Program-made: the position numbers and the translations under genes
NCBI RefSeq assembly: GCF_015477805.1
Contig: NZ_JADLQL010000001.1
Span: 744,001-808,000 of the forward strand
DNA: 64,000 bases
Reading direction: 5' to 3'
Origin: Nocardia flavorosea
GTDB taxonomy: Bacteria; Actinomycetota; Actinomycetes; Mycobacteriales; Mycobacteriaceae
Shown here: positions 27,468 through 49,041 of the stretch, one piece after another
Layout: each line of letters begins with the position of its first letter
How positions within the stretch are numbered: position 1 is the first letter of the stretch
The notes under the pieces: generated by a model
What the model saw: only the letters and a program-made list of their open reading frames with translations
The model's database searches: none
Told to the model about the DNA's origin: nothing

Positions 27468-27673
27468 CTGTCGTCCTCCCGGCGGCCCGCGCCGACCGCC
27501 CCGCGTGCGTATCACCCGTCCGGAAATACTCCCATGAACGAGCGCCGGATGCCCGGCGAAGAAGTACTGCCGGACAGCCGTTGCCCGGCAGCCTACGCGG
27601 TCCGAGCAGCACGGGGCCGATCGGTGCTGGGCGCGCGGTACGGCCCCGGCCGGCCGCGACCACGGACCCGAAC

Positions 27674-27687
27674 GATAACGTGTTCTC
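27674..27687 (+). promoter_or_regulatory. Weak KstR-like box and -10 before the thioesterase gene
   Basis: GATAACGTGTTCTC keeps the AAC-GT-GTT core and one full half-site arm of the KstR operator (consensus TnnAACnnGTTnnA) but misses both outer bases. TAACGT (27676-27681) fits a -10 six bases before the ATG, which would give a leaderless message. I list it because two better boxes lie nearby. Confidence 0.35.
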
Positions 27688-28356
27688 ATGAGCGAAAACG
27701 AGGCCGGGAACGCACTGCCGAGCGCGGAGCATCACGAAGGCGGCTTCCGGCCGATGTCGGAGCTGATGGATCAGATCCGTTCGGTGGACACCAGCCGCGG
27801 CGGACCCCACTACGGCGATTTCATCGAACAGGTCCGCACGCTCATGGACCGGGCCCGGCTGGCGGTACCGCCGGACGATCTGGTGCAGGAAGCGGCCGGC
27901 ATCCTGGAAAAGCTCAACGACCGGCTGGCCGGGCATGTCCACGAGGAATGGGACGCCCCCGGCTGGACCCGGTTCGATCTGCCGTCGCGAGGCAATGTGA
28001 CCCTGCCGCCCTACCGTGTGGACCGGGCGAAACCGGACGGGGTGGAGGCCCGGATCACCTACCGCACCTTCCATCTGGGCGGGAACGCAGCGGCCCACGG
28101 CGGATACATCTCCCTGGGTTTCGACGATCTGATGGGTCTGGCGGGTTCCCTGTATTCCGGGTCGGTCACTCGCACGGCCTCGCTGACCGTCGACTATCGG
28201 GCGATCACACCGCTGAACAAGGAACTGCAATTGCGTGCCTGGGGGGAACGGCATGAGGGCCGCAAGGTCTGGATCAAGGCCACCCTGCACGACGGCGACC
28301 TGCTCTGCGCCGAAGCCCACGGCCTTTTCATCGTGCTGAAACCCGGCCAGCCCTGA
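27688..28356 (+). CDS. PaaI-type hotdog thioesterase
   Basis: 222 residues. The C-terminal 150 residues have the hotdog pattern of the PaaI/acyl-CoA thioesterase family: RTFHLGGNAAAHGGYISLGFDDLMG (split RTFHLGGN and AHGGYISLGFDD), then SLTVDYRAITPLNKEL and the GRKVWIKATLHDGD strand. It would hydrolyse an acyl-CoA, perhaps from aromatic or steroid breakdown. The N-terminal 70 residues are an added helical part. ATG start without ribosome site, consistent with a leaderless transcript from the TAACGT motif. It converges on the sulfotransferase operon across a 350-base gap. Confidence 0.87.
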   Translation: MSENEAGNALPSAEHHEGGFRPMSELMDQIRSVDTSRGGPHYGDFIEQVRTLMDRARLAVPPDDLVQEAAGILEKLNDRLAGHVHEEWDAPGWTRFDLPSRGNVTLPPYRVDRAKPDGVEARITYRTFHLGGNAAAHGGYISLGFDDLMGLAGSLYSGSVTRTASLTVDYRAITPLNKELQLRAWGERHEGRKVWIKATLHDGDLLCAEAHGLFIVLKPGQP

Positions 28357-28704: not shown

Positions 28705-29877
28705 CTACCTGCCGGTACCGGCCGGATAGTGCTCGGCCAGGTACGGGGCGAATGCTTCGTCGACCTGTTCGGCGGTGAGACCGAAATCGGCCAGCGAGTA
28801 CTTGTGCGCGGGACGTGCGGCGCCCGAGGTGGATTCGCTGTGCAGGCCGGCCATCCGGGTGCGCGCCGCTCCGGTGAACTCGATCCCGAAGTGGTCATAG
28901 ACCCGCTCGACGGTGGCGATCGGATCGGTGACGAAGTCCTCGTAGTACACATCGCAGAACTGCGCGGCGGGATACTTCGCGCGATCGGCGAGGAATGTCC
29001 GTGCGCCGCGGGACCACAGCTCGAGCTGCGCCTGTCCCACCACCGGACCGCGGAACTTCTCCGACCAGCCGTCGGTGGCCTGTTCGTTCAGGCTGCATAC
29101 CGACGCCACGATCGTGCGTGGCTGCCGGTGCATCTGGATGATCAGCGCGTCGGGGTATACGGCGAGCAGAGCGTCGAGCGCGAACAGGTGACTCGGGTTC
29201 TTCAGCACCCACCGGCGGTCCGGATCGTTGAGCCCGATCAGTTGCAGATTGCGGCGGTGGCGTTCGTAGGCGGGTGTCCAGTCCTGGTTGCGCAGCCAGT
29301 CGGAGTAGCGCGGCAGGTAGGCCAGGCATTCGTAGGAGATCGACATCGCCGACTGCCGCAGCAGTTGCCAGCACTCCTCCACCTGGTCGGCCGAGATATG
29401 GTGCACGCCCATGAACTCCGGGTGCTCCACGTGATGTTTCTCGTAGGCCGCCTGCAACTGCTGGAACACCGGGTTGTGCTCCCAGGTCTCGCGCGGCGGG
29501 CGCGGCTGCGGCATCTCGGTCAACCACATCTCGAGGCCCTGATGGCCGGGGTCGGCGGTGAGCAGGCGGTGCACGGCCGTCGTCCCGGAACGCGGTAGCC
29601 CGGTGACGAAGATCGGGCGTTCGACTCCTACCTCGGCATGCTGCGGATACTGTTTCCAGCCGGCTTCACTCAACGCCCGGGCGATGAGCGCCCCGCGCAG
29701 GAACGCGCGGTTGACCTTGTTGCCGAACGGAGTGAGTTCGGCGTCCCGTTCGAACGATTCGAGCAGCACCGACAGTCCGGTGCGGTAGTCGTCGGCGCCG
29801 AAATCGTCCAGGCCGATCACCTTGGTGGCGGAGGCGTGCAGATCGTCGATCGTGCCGACGTCTTCCCTGCCGATCAT
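28705..29877 (-). CDS. PAPS-dependent sulfotransferase (Rv3529c-like)
   Basis: 390-residue sulfotransferase of the type-3 bacterial family. The PAPS 5'-phosphosulfate loop is TGLPRSGTTAVHRLL (92-106); the 3'-phosphate part is recognisable in LIIQMHRQPRTIVASVCSLN. It would move sulfonate from PAPS to a hydroxyl of a lipid or sterol-like acceptor; the acceptor is unknown. It is the third gene of an operon after a DUF1214 protein and an SDR (13 bases from the latter). From memory, the same trio is Rv3531c-Rv3530c-Rv3529c in the cholesterol gene region of M. tuberculosis. Here cysD and cysNC lie beside it. Confidence 0.9.
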   Translation of the reverse strand: MIGREDVGTIDDLHASATKVIGLDDFGADDYRTGLSVLLESFERDAELTPFGNKVNRAFLRGALIARALSEAGWKQYPQHAEVGVERPIFVTGLPRSGTTAVHRLLTADPGHQGLEMWLTEMPQPRPPRETWEHNPVFQQLQAAYEKHHVEHPEFMGVHHISADQVEECWQLLRQSAMSISYECLAYLPRYSDWLRNQDWTPAYERHRRNLQLIGLNDPDRRWVLKNPSHLFALDALLAVYPDALIIQMHRQPRTIVASVCSLNEQATDGWSEKFRGPVVGQAQLELWSRGARTFLADRAKYPAAQFCDVYYEDFVTDPIATVERVYDHFGIEFTGAARTRMAGLHSESTSGAARPAHKYSLADFGLTAEQVDEAFAPYLAEHYPAGTGR

Positions 29878-29890
29878 TTCTGGTTTCTCC

Positions 29891-30667
29891 TCAGTGGTGG
29901 AATTCGCCGCAGTTCACGTCGAGACAGGTCCCGGTGATCGCCCGGGACATCTCGGAGGCGAAGAAGATGACGGCATCGGCGATTTCGTCGGGTTCGGGCA
30001 GCCGGCGCAGATCGATATCGGCGGCGGTCTCGGTGTATACCTGCGCGGCCGTGATTCCGCGTTCCTTGGCGAGGTAGTCGAAATACCATTTCAGAGTGTC
30101 GGCCCAGATCCAGCCCGGCGCCACCGAATTGACCCGGATACCCCGGGGTCCCAGTTCGGTGGCGAGGCTCTGCGCCAGCGCCAACAGCGTGGTCTTGGCC
30201 ATCTTGTACGGGCCGTAGGGTTGCCGGGAGTGCCGCAGGACGGCCGAGTTGATCATCACCACCGACCCGTTGCGTTCGGCGAGCGCCGGTGCGAACAGGC
30301 GGGTAAGGCGTAGTGCGGCGAAAACGTTGGTGTCGAAACTGGCGCGCAGATCGTCGATCGCCACATCGGCGAGGTCGGCCATCGGCGGCATGGCGAACGC
30401 ATTGTTCACCAGCGCGTCCACCCGGCCGAATTCTTCGTGGGTGGCGCGCACGAGTTCCTGCGCCGCCGCATCATCGGTGATATCGGTCGGCACGACCAGC
30501 GCGTGCCCGCCCAACGCCTCGATTTCGGCGGCCACCTTGCGTAGGCGTTTCTCGGTACGCGAGGCGAGCACCACCTTCGCGCCCGACTTCGCGCTCTGTA
30601 CCGCGATGGCCTGGCCGAGCCCGGGGCCGATTCCCGAGACGACCACCACTTTGTCCCGCAACAGCAT
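29891..30667 (-). CDS. Short-chain dehydrogenase/reductase (Rv3530c-like)
   Basis: 258-residue classical SDR. The cofactor loop SGIGPGLGQA (11-20) follows the first strand; NNAF and the catalytic Ser plus YKMAK (Tyr-x-x-x-Lys, about 155-159) are in place, and the C-terminal half ends in the usual TGTCLDVNCGEFHH. It probably oxidises or reduces an alcohol/ketone with NAD(P). The ATG shares its first base with the stop of the DUF1214 gene (TGATG), so translation is coupled. It starts only after that coupling point; the longer open frame is shadow. Substrate is unknown, a steroid alcohol is a fair guess from context. Confidence 0.92.
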   Translation of the reverse strand: MLLRDKVVVVSGIGPGLGQAIAVQSAKSGAKVVLASRTEKRLRKVAAEIEALGGHALVVPTDITDDAAAQELVRATHEEFGRVDALVNNAFAMPPMADLADVAIDDLRASFDTNVFAALRLTRLFAPALAERNGSVVMINSAVLRHSRQPYGPYKMAKTTLLALAQSLATELGPRGIRVNSVAPGWIWADTLKWYFDYLAKERGITAAQVYTETAADIDLRRLPEPDEIADAVIFFASEMSRAITGTCLDVNCGEFHH

Positions 30668-31830
30668 CAGCCCAGCATCCTTTCCGCCACCGCGGCCTGC
30701 CGGGCGGCGATGCGCACCTTCCAGTCCTGCGGGGTGATCCGGGATTCCCGGTAATAGGGCAGCCGGTCCGGCAGTTCGTCGAAGGACACCAGTTCCACCG
30801 TCGGCCCGTCCTCGGGTTTCAGTTCCCGGGACAGCCGCTGCCAGCGGAACTGCAGGTAGGCACGGTCGTGGCCGGTGCGCTCGATCCAGTTGACCAGGCC
30901 GGGGTCGCGTTCGCTGATCACCAGCCGGATCATGCCGTCCGGATCCACCTTCGCCTGGTCGGCGTTGAGGCTGGTCTGGTGGTTGATGTAGTCCAGCGAC
31001 AGGTACCACATACTGCCGAGCTGGAACCCTTGGTAGGGGGCGTCGGATTTCGGCACGGTGAGGATCATGACCTGGTCGCCGGTGAGTTCGTAGTGGCCGA
31101 CCGAGGAGAACTGCGTGGACAGCCCACCGGGGGTACGCCGCGGTTCGGTCATGGTGTTGACCGGCAGATTCAGATAGAACCATTCGGGGAAGGCCAGGAA
31201 GGTCTTCAAACGGGAGACCAGCATCTTGCCGGCGACTTCGTACCGTTTGGCCATCAGGTCGGTGGTGACCGCCGGTGGCGCCGTGCCGGCGGTGTCGACC
31301 CGGCGGATCCGGACGGTACCGGCCTTCTCGTTCGCCCAGTCGCCGTAGACCTCGCGCACCGCGAGCATGGTCGAATCGGCGGCGAGCTGGATATGGTTGC
31401 GGCCGCCGGCTCCGGGGCCCAGTGTCAGTTCGTAGGTGCCGTCGGCCGCGATATCGATGGAGCGGTCGTCGAAGGCGGTTTCCCCGCCGGGCACCTCGGT
31501 CGGCGAATAGTTGCCGTTGAGCACCTGGAAGCTCAGGTCGCGGGTGGTGCCGCGGGTCCCCGTCACCACGTATTCGGCGTCGGGGCGCAGGTTGGCGTGC
31601 CAGTAGAGGGTATCCGGGTTGTCCAGGCCCATCTTCGTATAGGGGCCGGTGGAAGTCACGAAGAACGGGAAATCCTTGTCGAAGGCCCACGACATCTGGA
31701 TGGCGGCCCGGATACTTGCGGCCAGATAGTCGTACCCCTCGGCCAGATCCTGTTCGGTGCGGATATGGGGGGCGCCTTTGATGATTTCCTCGGCGGCGGC
31801 GATCGCGTCCGCGAACGGCTGAGTCAGCAC
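30667..31830 (-). CDS. DUF1214 domain protein (Rv3531c-like)
   Basis: 387 residues, without signal peptide or membrane helix. The C-terminal half (about 200-350) shows the DUF1214 pattern, including ASFQLGSMWYLSLDYINHQTSLN-type strands (here QLGSMWYLSLDYINHQ) and SERDPGLVNWIERTG. The function of this domain is not known. It is the first gene of the operon with the SDR and sulfotransferase; a GTG start with GGGAG nine bases upstream. The promoter region shared with the IclR gene carries a 19-nt palindrome and a KstR box. From memory Rv3531c is its mycobacterial counterpart. Confidence 0.85.
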   Translation of the reverse strand: MLTQPFADAIAAAEEIIKGAPHIRTEQDLAEGYDYLAASIRAAIQMSWAFDKDFPFFVTSTGPYTKMGLDNPDTLYWHANLRPDAEYVVTGTRGTTRDLSFQVLNGNYSPTEVPGGETAFDDRSIDIAADGTYELTLGPGAGGRNHIQLAADSTMLAVREVYGDWANEKAGTVRIRRVDTAGTAPPAVTTDLMAKRYEVAGKMLVSRLKTFLAFPEWFYLNLPVNTMTEPRRTPGGLSTQFSSVGHYELTGDQVMILTVPKSDAPYQGFQLGSMWYLSLDYINHQTSLNADQAKVDPDGMIRLVISERDPGLVNWIERTGHDRAYLQFRWQRLSRELKPEDGPTVELVSFDELPDRLPYYRESRITPQDWKVRIAARQAAVAERMLG

Positions 31831-31851: not shown

Positions 31852-31870
31852 ATGTACCGCCCTGGTACAT
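31852..31870. promoter_or_regulatory. 19-nt palindrome, probable IclR operator
   Basis: ATGTACC-GCCCT-GGTACAT: perfect 7-bp arms with a 5-nt spacer, between the divergent DUF1214 and IclR genes. Its position, nearer to the DUF1214 gene, and its symmetry fit the binding site of a dimeric regulator; the adjacent IclR product is the natural candidate. Confidence 0.65.
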
Positions 31871-31887: not shown

Positions 31888-31901
31888 TAGAACCTGTTCT
31901 A
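31888..31901. promoter_or_regulatory. KstR operator box
   Basis: TAGAACCTGTTCTA, a perfect 14-bp palindrome with a 2-nt centre that matches every fixed base of the KstR consensus TnnAACnnGTTnnA. It ends 10 bases before the IclR start codon, overlapping its ribosome site (AGGAGTGG), and lies 58 bases upstream of the DUF1214 start. KstR is the TetR-type repressor of cholesterol catabolism in mycobacteria and rhodococci. Confidence 0.8.
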
Positions 31902-31911
31902 GGAGTGGTCA

Positions 31912-32823
31912 ATGGCAGCGGGCCCGGCGGAGGTGCGCGAGGTGGGACGGCGATCGGCGCCCACACAGCGCGTGATCCAGGTGATCGATTACCTCACCGC
32001 GCGGCGCGGCCGCCGCGCCGGACTCTCGGAAATAGCGCGTGACCTGGGTCTGGCCAAACCCACCTGCCTGGGAATCCTCACCGAGCTCACCGCCGCCGGC
32101 TACCTCACCCGCGACCCCCGCACCCGCGACTACGGCCCGGGTCCCGCACTCATCGCCGCGGGACGGGTCGCCCAGGACAGTTTCGCCATTGCCGGGCTCG
32201 CCCACCCCGAACTGGGGCGCCTCAGCGCGAAATATGCCACCACCTGCACCGCGTCCGCCGTGGTCGGCGAACGGATCAGCGTCTTGGACAGCGCCGGCCC
32301 GGCCATGGTGCGTGTCGGAGCGACCTATCGTTTCGCGCCGCCGGTCGGCCTGATGTACGTGCTGTGGGATACCGATGCCGCCTTCGACGCCTGGCTCACC
32401 ACCCCACCGACGGTGCCCCTGCATCAGGACGAGACCCGGCTGCGCCGACTCGTCGCGGAATGCCGCGAGCGCGGCTATCTGGTGGAGAGCATGACCGGCG
32501 CGGGCCGGCAGCTGTACTCCATGCTGGCCGGGGTCGGCGGCCACGAAATGCCGGATGAGCTGCGCACCGCCGTTGCGGAGCTGGTGACCACACTCGGCGA
32601 GCGGGTGTACCTGGGCGCGGATCTGCGTCCCCGCAAGGAGCATCCGGTGAGTCTGCTGGCCGCCCCGACGTACGACGCCGACGGCCGCCAGCAACTGGTG
32701 CTCACGATGTATGTGGGCACCTCGATCACCGGCGCGGAGATCGCCCGCCGCGGCACAGCGCTCGTGGCGGCAGCGGACGCGGTCACCGCGGCGGCGGGCG
32801 GGCAGCGGCCGCAACACCATTGA
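31912..32823 (+). CDS. IclR-family transcriptional regulator
   Basis: 303-residue IclR regulator. The helix-turn-helix region is about 17-70 (TQRVIQVIDYL, then LSEIARDLGLAKPTCLGIL). The C-terminal effector domain covers about 85-290, with GLMYVLWDTDAAFDAWL and VSLLAAPTYDADGRQQLVL. ATG with AGGAG upstream. Divergent from the DUF1214-SDR-sulfotransferase operon and only 32 bases before cysD, it probably controls one or both; the palindrome at 31852-31870 is its likely site. The KstR box overlapping its ribosome site would place it under sterol control. Effector unknown. Confidence 0.9.
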   Translation: MAAGPAEVREVGRRSAPTQRVIQVIDYLTARRGRRAGLSEIARDLGLAKPTCLGILTELTAAGYLTRDPRTRDYGPGPALIAAGRVAQDSFAIAGLAHPELGRLSAKYATTCTASAVVGERISVLDSAGPAMVRVGATYRFAPPVGLMYVLWDTDAAFDAWLTTPPTVPLHQDETRLRRLVAECRERGYLVESMTGAGRQLYSMLAGVGGHEMPDELRTAVAELVTTLGERVYLGADLRPRKEHPVSLLAAPTYDADGRQQLVLTMYVGTSITGAEIARRGTALVAAADAVTAAAGGQRPQHH

Positions 32824-32831
32824 CCGTTCAT

Positions 32832-32849
32832 AGAAACGTGTTCTAGTTT
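32832..32849 (+). promoter_or_regulatory. KstR box overlapping a -10 element before cysD
   Basis: AGAAACGTGTTCTA (32832-32845) fits TnnAACnnGTTnnA at all fixed positions except the first. TAGTTT (32844-32849), a TANNNT -10 element, overlaps its right end and stands six bases before the GTG of cysD. As cysD has no ribosome site, a leaderless transcript starting at the GTG is likely, and bound KstR would cover the promoter. Confidence 0.65.
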
Positions 32850-32855
32850 TTAAGC

Positions 32856-33788
32856 GTGAGCCAGCACACGAAGTCGGCAGCGGGCACTTACGAGCTTTCG
32901 CATCAGGCCGCACTCGAGGCCGAATCGGTCCACATCCTGCGGGAGGTGGCCGCGACCTTCGAACGTCCCGTTCTCCTGTTCTCCGGCGGTAAGGATTCGG
33001 TGGTGATGCTGCATCTGGCCACCAAAGCGTTCTGGCCGGCGCCGGTACCGTTCCCGATCCTGCACATCGACACCGGGCACAACTTCGACGAGCTGATCGC
33101 CTACCGCGACGAGGTCGTCGCGAAGTACGGGTTACGCCTGCTCGTGGGCCGGGTCCAGGACGATATCGACGCGGGGCGGGTCACCGAGGACACCGGCCCG
33201 CGGGCCAGCCGTAACCGGTTGCAGACCACGACACTGCTGCGCAGTGTGCGCGAGGGCCGGTTCGACGCAGTATTCGGCGGCGCCCGCCGCGACGAGGAGA
33301 AAGCCCGCGCCAAGGAACGGGTCTTCAGCTTCCGCGACGAGTACGGCCAATGGGATCCGCGCCGGCAGCGGCCGGAGCTGTGGAATCTCTACAACGGCAA
33401 ACACCGCCCCGGCGAGCATATCCGGGTGTTCCCGCTGTCCAACTGGACCGAACTCGATATCTGGAGCTATATCGCGGCCGAGGATATCGATCTGCCGCCG
33501 CTGTACTACGCCCATCGCCGGCCGGTGGTCCAGCGCGACGGGATGCTACTGGCCCACACCCGGTTCCTCACCCTGCTCGACGGCGAGGAACCGCGGGAGG
33601 CGCTGGTCCGGTTCCGCACCGTCGGCGATGCCACCTGCACCGGCTGTGTGGAATCCACCGCGGCCACACCGGCCGAGGTGGTCACCGAGGTCGCCACCGC
33701 CCGGATCACCGAACGCGGTGCGACCCGCGCCGACGACCGGATCTCCGAGGCCGGGATGGAAGACCGTAAACGAGAGGGTTACTTCTGA
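32856..33788 (+). CDS. cysD: Sulfate adenylyltransferase subunit 2
   Basis: Small subunit of ATP sulfurylase; with CysN it makes adenosine 5'-phosphosulfate from ATP and sulfate. 310 residues, the normal length. The PP-loop SGGKDSVVMLHLA lies near residues 47-59, followed by FPILHIDTGHNFDEL; RRDEEKARAKER and the C-terminal GCVESTA segment complete the match. The GTG start has no ribosome site and probably begins a leaderless message. Its stop overlaps the cysNC start by TGATG. The place next to a sulfotransferase operon, under a KstR-like box, suggests a PAPS-making rather than a cysteine-making role; no cysH or sir gene is near. Confidence 0.95.
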   Translation: MSQHTKSAAGTYELSHQAALEAESVHILREVAATFERPVLLFSGGKDSVVMLHLATKAFWPAPVPFPILHIDTGHNFDELIAYRDEVVAKYGLRLLVGRVQDDIDAGRVTEDTGPRASRNRLQTTTLLRSVREGRFDAVFGGARRDEEKARAKERVFSFRDEYGQWDPRRQRPELWNLYNGKHRPGEHIRVFPLSNWTELDIWSYIAAEDIDLPPLYYAHRRPVVQRDGMLLAHTRFLTLLDGEEPREALVRFRTVGDATCTGCVESTAATPAEVVTEVATARITERGATRADDRISEAGMEDRKREGYF

Positions 33789-35626
33789 TGAGCTCCCTGT
33801 TGCGCCTGGCCACGGCGGGCAGCGTCGACGACGGGAAATCCACCCTCATCGGCCGGCTGCTGTTCGATTCGAAAACCCTGTTCACCGATCAGCTCGACGC
33901 GATGGAACGCACCAGCCGCGACCGCGGCGAGGACTATCCGAACCTGGCTCTGCTCACCGACGGATTGCGTGCGGAACGGGAACAGGGCATCACCATCGAC
34001 GTCGCGCACCGCTACTTCGCCACCCCGCGCCGCAAATTCATCATCGCCGATACCCCGGGGCATGTGCAGTACACCCGGAACATGGTGACCGGCGCCTCGA
34101 CCGCCGATTTGGCACTGATCCTCGTGGACGCCCGGCACGGCGTGGTGGAACAGACCCGCCGGCACGCCTTCCTGGCCTCCCTGCTCGGCGTACCGCATCT
34201 GGTGCTGTGCGTGAACAAGATGGACCTGGTGGACTGGTCGGCGCAGCGGTTCGCCGAGATCCGGGAGGAATTCGCGGGTTTCGCGTCCCGGCTGAACATC
34301 GCCGATCTCACCTTCATCCCGATGTCGGCATTGCACGGCGACAATATCGTGCACCGCAGCGCCACCATGGACTGGTACGAGGGCACGCCGCTGCTGCACC
34401 ATCTCGAAGAAGTGCATATCGCCTCCGACCGCAACCTGATCGACGCCCGGCTGCCCGTGCAGTACGTGATCCGCAGTCACACCCCCGATTTCCGCGGCTA
34501 TGCGGGAACGATCGCCAGCGGGGTGTGGTCGCCCGGGGACGAGATCACCGTACTGCCCTCGGGGCTGTCCACCACGGTGACCGGGATCTGGGGGCCGGGC
34601 GGCAGCCCGCTGACCGAGGCTTTCCCCCCGCAGGCGGTGACGGTGACGCTGGCCGATCAGCTCGATATCGGCCGCGGCGATATGCTGTGCCGCCCGGCCA
34701 ACCGGCCGCAGACCGGCCGCGATCTGGACACCATGGTGTGCTGGTTCAGCGACGAAGCGGAGCTGCGCCCCGGCGCGTCGTACACGGTGCGGCACACCAC
34801 CCGCAGTGTCACGGCGGAGATCCGCTCCCTGGACTACCGGCTCGATGTGAACACCCTGCACCGCGACGAGAACGCGAATACCCTGGCGCTCAACCAGATC
34901 GGCCGGGTCCAGTTGCGGACCCGGCAGGCGCTGCAATTCGATCCGTATCGCCGTAACCGCACCACCGGCAGTTTCCTGCTGGTCGACGACGCCACCGGCG
35001 ATACCGTCGGCGCCGGGATGATCACCGGTCCCAGCCTGCCCGCCTCGCGGGTGGTGTGGCATTCGAGCGCGGTCGGCCGCGCGGAACGGCCCACTCGTGG
35101 TCGTACGGTCTGGCTCACCGGGCTGTCCGGTTCCGGGAAATCGTCGGTGGCGGTGGAGCTCGAACGCCGCCTGGTCGCGGCGGGGCGGCCGGCGTTTCTG
35201 CTCGACGGCGACAATCTGCGGCACGGCCTCAATGCCGATCTGGGGTTCTCGGCCGCGGACCGGACGGAGAACATCCGCCGGGTGGGTGAGGTCGCGCGAC
35301 TGTTCGCCGAGTCGGGAACGGTCGCGATCGTCTCGCTCATCAGTCCTTACCGAACCGACCGCGAAAGGGCCCGAGCGGTGCACGACGCCGCCGGTATCGC
35401 GTTCCTGGAGGTCTTCGTGGACACCCCGCTGGACATCTGCGAGGCCCGCGACCCCAAGGGGCTGTACGCCAAGGCCAGGACCGGGGAAATCCGTGGGTTC
35501 ACCGGTATCGATGATCCCTATGAACCGCCCGTGGCCCCGGCGCTCGTGCTGCGGCCGGAGGACGGCGACCCCGCGGCGATGGCCGCCGCGATCCTGGCGT
35601 TGCTGGCCAGCGAGGACGACGCCTGA
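33788..35626 (+). CDS. cysNC: Bifunctional CysNC: ATP sulfurylase GTPase subunit fused to APS kinase
   Basis: 612 residues. The CysN part (1-430) is an EF-Tu-like GTPase: P-loop GSVDDGKS (11-18), DTPGHVQYTRNM, and NKMD near 139. The CysC part (about 435-612) has its own P-loop GLSGSGKSS (about 445-453), then DGDNLRHGL and FVDTPLDICEARDPKGLY, so the product phosphorylates APS to PAPS. This fusion is the form found in mycobacteria. Its start is coupled to cysD. Together they form a complete sulfate-to-PAPS module, matching the need of the sulfotransferase encoded 4 kb upstream. Confidence 0.97.
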   Translation: MSSLLRLATAGSVDDGKSTLIGRLLFDSKTLFTDQLDAMERTSRDRGEDYPNLALLTDGLRAEREQGITIDVAHRYFATPRRKFIIADTPGHVQYTRNMVTGASTADLALILVDARHGVVEQTRRHAFLASLLGVPHLVLCVNKMDLVDWSAQRFAEIREEFAGFASRLNIADLTFIPMSALHGDNIVHRSATMDWYEGTPLLHHLEEVHIASDRNLIDARLPVQYVIRSHTPDFRGYAGTIASGVWSPGDEITVLPSGLSTTVTGIWGPGGSPLTEAFPPQAVTVTLADQLDIGRGDMLCRPANRPQTGRDLDTMVCWFSDEAELRPGASYTVRHTTRSVTAEIRSLDYRLDVNTLHRDENANTLALNQIGRVQLRTRQALQFDPYRRNRTTGSFLLVDDATGDTVGAGMITGPSLPASRVVWHSSAVGRAERPTRGRTVWLTGLSGSGKSSVAVELERRLVAAGRPAFLLDGDNLRHGLNADLGFSAADRTENIRRVGEVARLFAESGTVAIVSLISPYRTDRERARAVHDAAGIAFLEVFVDTPLDICEARDPKGLYAKARTGEIRGFTGIDDPYEPPVAPALVLRPEDGDPAAMAAAILALLASEDDA

Positions 35627-48300: not shown

Positions 48301-49041
48301 ATGAAACTCGAGAACACTTTCCAGATCCCCGTTCCGGCCGACCGGGCCTGGCCCGTTCTGCTCGACCTCGAGCGGCTCGCGCCGTGCGTTCCGGGAGCCA
48401 CCCTCACGTCCCGGGAGGGCGACGATTTCCACGGCAAGATCAAGGTGAAACTCGGACCGGTCGGGCTCACCTACAACGGTGTCATCAAGATCCTGTCCCA
48501 GGACGCGGACGCCAGAATCGCGGTCCTCGAAGGTGGCGGTCGCGAAACCCGCGGCAACGGCACCGCGAAGGCGGTGATCACCTGCCGCCTGGTGGAATCC
48601 AGCGGGGTCACGGATGTCTTCGTCGACACCGAACTGGCGATCACCGGTAAACCGGCCCAGTTCGGCCGGGGCGCACTGGCCGATGTGGCGGGTACGTTGA
48701 TCGGCGCCTTCGCCGACAACCTCGCCGCGGAGATCACCTCGTCGGCGGGCGGGGTCGCCCACGACGAGGTATCCGATGCGGCGAGCAGTGCGGCTACGGC
48801 CGACGCCACCGAACCCGCCCCCGCCGACGCCACCGAACCCGCTGGATCCGCACCGGCCGGCTCGCCGGCACCGTCTCGATCGCCCGCGCCGACATCTGTC
48901 GCCGCGCGGCCCGCCGCCGAACCCATCGACCTGATGGCGGCCGCCGGATTCTCCGCCGATCGCCGACTCCTGCTCGCGCTGGGCGCGGCAGCGCTGGTGA
49001 TCCTGTTCCGGCTGTCCCGGAATCGGCGGGAGTACGGGTAG
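48301..49041 (+). CDS. coxG: CoxG-like SRPBCC protein with C-terminal membrane anchor
   Basis: 246 residues. Residues 1-145 form a CoxG/SRPBCC domain (KLENTFQIPVPADRAWPVL; FHGKIKVKLGPVGLTYNG). A disordered Ala/Pro/Thr-rich linker with ATEPAPAD repeats follows, then one membrane helix (about 218-237) and a short basic end. In CO-oxidising bacteria CoxG anchors the dehydrogenase to the membrane and helps it feed quinone (family knowledge), so I expect the same for this hydroxylase. ATG 28 bases after the 2Fe-2S gene. Last gene of the operon. Confidence 0.9.
   Translation: MKLENTFQIPVPADRAWPVLLDLERLAPCVPGATLTSREGDDFHGKIKVKLGPVGLTYNGVIKILSQDADARIAVLEGGGRETRGNGTAKAVITCRLVESSGVTDVFVDTELAITGKPAQFGRGALADVAGTLIGAFADNLAAEITSSAGGVAHDEVSDAASSAATADATEPAPADATEPAGSAPAGSPAPSRSPAPTSVAARPAAEPIDLMAAAGFSADRRLLLALGAAALVILFRLSRNRREYG

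Follow-up and report, generated by a model that had tools for sequence, protein, structure and literature searches.

KstR, the TetR-type repressor of sterol catabolism, is released by a cholestenoyl-CoA-type ligand. Its regulon in Mycobacterium is one of the described systems closest to the locus analyzed here. In that genus a KstR-binding site precedes Rv3531c, and loss of kstR raises MSMEG_5932 expression 6-fold (Kendall 2007, PMC1995591). The KstR site in front of the mycobacterial Rv3531c unit is already known, and its link to sulfation is hardly explored: a literature search, which covered few subscription papers, found no relevant paper that connects KstR to either a sulfotransferase or cysDN. 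Two other described systems are relevant, namely the assimilatory cysDN/cysNC operons and the M. tuberculosis sulfotransferase of PDB entry 2zq5. The searched PDB text calls the latter only a putative uncharacterized protein; we take it to be Stf1, probably Rv3529c.

The window, by which we mean the whole stretch of 64,000 nucleotides that was analyzed, contains on its minus strand a unit that matches the Rv3531c-Rv3529c unit of M. tuberculosis. The first gene of this left operon (30667-31830) encodes a DUF1214-like protein of 387 aa, and it is followed by the genes for a short-chain dehydrogenase (SDR) of 260 aa (29891-30673; NF005909, 397 bits, above the cut-off) and a PAPS-dependent-type sulfotransferase of 390 aa (28705-29877; PF13469, 212 bits). 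The DUF1214-like protein matches PF06742 only below the cut-off; a fold search with it gave a match to 6ANS (E 1e-31), and all its matches were uncharacterised DUF1214-type proteins. Its orthologues are present in 98 of 98 genomes of the genus and in 113 of 151 genomes of the family. The sulfotransferase matches 2zq5_A with 545 bits over 374 residues and shares its PAPS-binding motif, here GLPRSGTTA; residues G93, R96 and G98-T100 are invariant. It is the only PF13469/PF00685 member detected in the genome, and its predicted PAPS-dependent activity agrees with the Sulfotransfer_3 domain, the motif and a genomic source of PAPS.

On the plus strand, an IclR-type regulator gene (31912-32823; 303 aa; PF09339 HTH_IclR, 35.5 bits) is divergent from the DUF1214-like gene and is followed by two genes for sulfate activation: cysD, the sulfate adenylyltransferase small subunit (32856-33788; TIGR02039, 461 bits, above the cut-off), and cysNC, a fusion of the large subunit with an APS kinase that makes PAPS (33788-35626; NF004035, 944 bits; PF01583, 226 bits). 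CysNC is the sole strong APS kinase match in the genome, the other match being one of 42 residues exactly at the threshold. CysD and the CysN-CysC fusion are shared with assimilatory cysDN/cysNC operons; unlike those, the copy in the window has a sulfotransferase gene and a KstR box as neighbours, and the genome keeps a separate cysD-cysN pair without an APS kinase domain (L213:2616-5489; G000:C22:226115-228988). This second pair adjoins a weak CysD/PAPS-reductase-like match and is probably the assimilatory copy. On the simplest reading, the PAPS of the locus is made chiefly for the one detected sulfotransferase.

Like the Rv3531c and MSMEG_5932 sites of the Mycobacterium regulon, the locus combines the KstR palindrome with a DUF1214-like first gene, and in genus g29 the SDR and sulfotransferase genes follow with a box just upstream of the unit. 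It differs in that the unit lies outside the ring-degradation genes, in that an IclR gene separates it from cysD-cysNC, and in the presence of two further sites, another KstR box and what is probably an operator for IclR. The MSMEG_5932 primers of PMC1995591 translate to TSLNGT and KGYLQF, both of which occur exactly in four DUF1214 proteins of g29. In named genomes, the exact 20-mer of the Rv3531c site was found only in Williamsia and Mycolicibacterium/Mycobacterium records, never beside the unit. The named link therefore consists of these primers together with Tsukamurella tyrosinosolvens, which has the same six genes and both boxes.

The palindrome itself, box 1 (TAGAACCTGTTCTA), was described in a sequence-only reading as a perfect and fully symmetric match to the KstR consensus between the DUF1214 operon and the IclR gene, and both points were confirmed at exactly positions 31888-31901. 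This predicted KstR site, to which we assign no strand, has two perfectly complementary arms of six bases around a 2-base spacer and agrees with TnnAACnnGTTnnA at every fixed base. The site is part of the iclR leader, with 57 bases between it and the start codon of the DUF1214 gene, and is directly followed on its 3' side by AGGAG, so that it touches the ribosome-binding site of iclR. We built a symmetric KstR matrix from 47 published sites (Kendall 2007, PMC1995591), which score 14.7-28.3 bits with a median of 23.8. With 25.5 bits, box 1 exceeds that median and is the top hit in the 64-kb window; none of 150 second-order Markov shuffles reached its score. Letter for letter, its 14-mer recurs in M. 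tuberculosis between Rv3520c and Rv3521, at a site that KstR binds (PMC1995591). Two other matches in the window, at 48309 (with a broken GTT half) and at 226, were dismissed as KstR sites.

The earlier reading gave box 1 alone, and the matrix revealed a second predicted site. Box 2 (AGAAACGTGTTCTA; 32832-32845, no strand assigned) is separated by 10 bases from the GTG start codon of cysD downstream of it and, with 19.0 bits, ranks second in the window, where 0.013 such sites are expected per 64 kb. It lacks one fixed base of TnnAACnnGTTnnA, the first T, and is identical in 18 of 20 bases to the KstR-binding Rv1894c site (PMC1995591). The last bases of box 2 form the TA of a -10-like TAGTTT (32844-32849), and in the sequence no obvious ribosome-binding site could be seen between the box and the GTG; TAGTTT is plausibly the -10 element of a leaderless cysD transcript. 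A weak third candidate (GATAACGTGTTCTC; 27674-27687, no strand assigned, within CGATAACGTGTTCTCA at 27673-27688) scores 15.3 bits and does not match the outer T and A of the motif. It sits just before the start of a gene for 222 aa on the plus strand (27688-28356), downstream of the sulfotransferase gene, and is kept in close relatives only, decaying in others; its status as a KstR site is uncertain.

An assignment to KstR presupposes that the genome encodes the repressor and that equally good boxes are not scattered at random. A profile search of the genome found kstR at L004:1597-2241, with 334.7 bits against NF033703, for which the curated cut-off is 280. Its product is close to the solved KstR structures 5ua2/3mnl, and a perfect box lies in its own promoter, the intergenic region between kstR and an acyl-CoA dehydrogenase gene. 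The exact pattern TAGAACNNGTTCTA occurs at five sites genome-wide, compared with about 0.03 expected from base composition in 6.39 Mb. Allowing one mismatch adds 16 sites, whereas a reversed-letter control pattern gave one perfect and nine single-mismatch places. The excess disappears when two mismatches are allowed (97 sites genome-wide versus 157 for the reversed control), and therefore only near-perfect sites are meaningful. Of the 21 boxes with at most one mismatch, 19 stand just upstream of a likely gene, and many of these are steroid genes. Single-mismatch boxes precede hsaA (690 bits, cut-off 450), kstD for 3-ketosteroid dehydrogenase (863 bits, cut-off 788) and the gene of an Rv3520c-type F420 enzyme (504 bits, cut-off 335) that has a ChsH2-like OB-fold neighbour; other boxes of this quality are found before an SDR gene, a SnoaL-type gene and further genes.

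The boxes are also conserved. In the arrangement of the window, which we call layout A, box 1 is kept in all 56 and box 2 in 55 of the 56 loci fetched as a sample from the genus. Across 35 distinct sequences from the genus, 12 of the 14 columns of box 1 are invariant, the variation being confined to the two spacer bases, and AGGAG comes directly after the box. Other genera with the IclR gene have box 1 in 44 of 49 loci and box 2 in 31 of 40. Where the IclR gene is absent, and leaving aside genera in which the unit belongs to an hsa operon, box 1 is found in seven of ten loci, including all three such loci of g29; in g29 as a whole a KstR box is present in 7/7 loci, with or without IclR. One might suppose that box 1 is a chance palindrome, and the lack of excess of two-mismatch versions over the reversed control could be taken in that sense. 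Yet hardly any perfect site is expected by chance, and box 1 is kept in every layout A locus while its neighbouring bases vary, a conservation that refutes this explanation and makes it vanishingly unlikely.

Taken together, the TnnAACnnGTTnnA palindrome, a kstR gene with its own box and a promoter or leader site kept at orthologous places lead us to propose, with a probability of about 0.88, that boxes 1 and 2 are operators of KstR, encoded elsewhere in the genome. The regulator encoded next to the palindrome deserves consideration too, since box 1 forms part of the iclR leader, shows strict conservation together with iclR and has a second copy after that gene; it might be an autoregulatory operator of the IclR-type protein that merely resembles a KstR box. 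What makes this improbable is that the boxes outlive the gene. In two genomes of genus g6, G132 and G151, a genome-wide check (which covered G132, G151, G139 and G163) found no IclR orthologue. In both, cysD itself is the divergent neighbour of the DUF1214 gene, yet boxes of 20-22 bits remain; loci of g29, g23 and g27 without IclR likewise keep box 1. Because the boxes persist where the gene is absent, we conclude that they are not the IclR operator, and the occurrence of the same motif before kstR, hsaA and kstD argues in the same direction. Moreover, a separate inverted repeat, TGTACC-N5-GGTACA (31853-31869, no strand assigned), does track the IclR gene. It is invariant in 14 of 17 columns, takes the form GGTACAAATATGTACC...GTGGTAG in those other genera that have the gene, and was not found, with two mismatches allowed, in the two g6 loci that lack it; it is the probable operator of the IclR-type regulator. 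Within its arms are TACAT sequences resembling a -10 element for each of the two divergent promoters. With one repeat that follows IclR and boxes that are independent of it, the divergent region is therefore probably composed of two operators for two regulators.

A different TetR-type repressor with a near-identical motif, such as a KstR paralogue, could occupy the boxes instead. A second KstR-like protein, scoring below the cut-off, does exist in several genomes of g23, g27 and g29; the genome analyzed here, on the other hand, has one NF033703 match at that threshold, and in it kstR itself and ring-degradation genes carry this motif. We regard a repressor other than KstR as very improbable.

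Assuming that KstR is the cognate repressor, the locus may work as follows. Without sterols, a KstR dimer would occupy both boxes. On box 1 it would block iclR through its leader, and on box 2, which lies over the presumed -10 element, it would block cysD-cysNC. KstR would probably also dampen the DUF1214-SDR-sulfotransferase operon on the other strand, and IclR may tune this operon further through the TGTACC-N5-GGTACA repeat. Since box 1 lies in the iclR leader and touches the ribosome-binding site, its nearest target is iclR; it is placed for that gene rather than clearly over the DUF1214 promoter, and an effect on the latter is what we infer. Control of the sulfotransferase unit by box 1 may thus be direct, through IclR, or both. 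A sterol-derived acyl-CoA would release KstR, and PAPS (from CysD-CysNC) and the sulfotransferase that uses it would then be made together with the ring-degradation enzymes. The regulated set appears to include cysD-cysNC as well, via box 2.

It had been suggested from the sequence that the sulfotransferase unit is derepressed along with cholesterol catabolism. Its membership of the KstR regulon gains support from the conservation of the box in the family and its persistence without a neighbouring IclR gene, and also from the mycobacterial counterpart, a published KstR target. In addition, the unit is present in 113 of 120 family genomes that bear kstR and in none of the 31 that lack it, a co-occurrence that is partly due to shared ancestry and is inflated by relatedness; within g6, g19 and g23, single species lack both kstR and the unit. 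Lastly, in five genera (g4, g9, g11, g13 and g19) the unit follows hsaA-hsaC, and two KstR boxes lie between this group and a kshB-like gene that is transcribed away from it. In L129, a locus read in detail, an HsaB-like reductase gene lies between hsaA-hsaC and the unit, and in the g29 loci L117 and L202 the unit adjoins hsaE-hsaG-hsaF. The suggestion needs qualification, in that iclR is the target closest to box 1 and the boxes have been lost from part of the genus.

As for the substrate, the module would most likely O-sulfonate a hydroxyl or phenol group derived from the steroid, close to the 3-HSA/catechol step, a guess from synteny that we hold tentatively. With the same reserve we consider it possible that sterol catabolism in mycolic-acid actinobacteria includes a so far unrecognised branch of PAPS-dependent sulfonation, in which KstR would switch on PAPS synthesis and a sulfotransferase capping a phenolic or catecholic secosteroid or another hydroxysteroid, for detoxification, export or storage. 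A real possibility, if somewhat short of even, and one compatible with KstR operators, is that the sulfation genes are not directed at steroids and that KstR ties the making of a general sulfated product, a lipid or a cell-wall component, to growth on sterols. The products of other mycobacterial sulfotransferases are sulfated glycolipids or sulfomenaquinone, which fits such a role, as does the arrangement described below that mostly lacks the box; the position of the unit after hsaA-hsaC in five genera and the failure to find it without kstR speak against it. The two KstR boxes tie the unit to the genome's only strong APS kinase and its only detected sulfotransferase, and they appear to place both under the control of steroids. 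In other genera the unit follows genes for making and cleaving the steroid catechol, and the finding bears on an uncharacterised unit inside the cholesterol gene region of M. tuberculosis.

Of the 98 genomes searched in the genus, 55 have a close IclR orthologue (at least 71% identity) beside the DUF1214 gene and 43 (about 44%) are without one. In a second arrangement within the genus, layout B, cysD-cysNC-DUF1214-SDR-sulfotransferase form one run, all in one direction, with another, distant and divergent IclR gene (25-31%). A KstR box is kept in only 2 of 12 sampled layout B loci, and KstR control is therefore not essential to the sulfation module. Layout B loci (L102-L107, L109-L111 and L137-L139) have a strongly conserved block around GTGTCACATNATCGAACNATAGCGTCGAATATTCGACA before cysD, which is perhaps the operator of the layout B IclR. 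In one layout B genome, G025, the DUF1214 gene is split in two (L139:4454-5616), possibly a pseudogene or a sequencing error.
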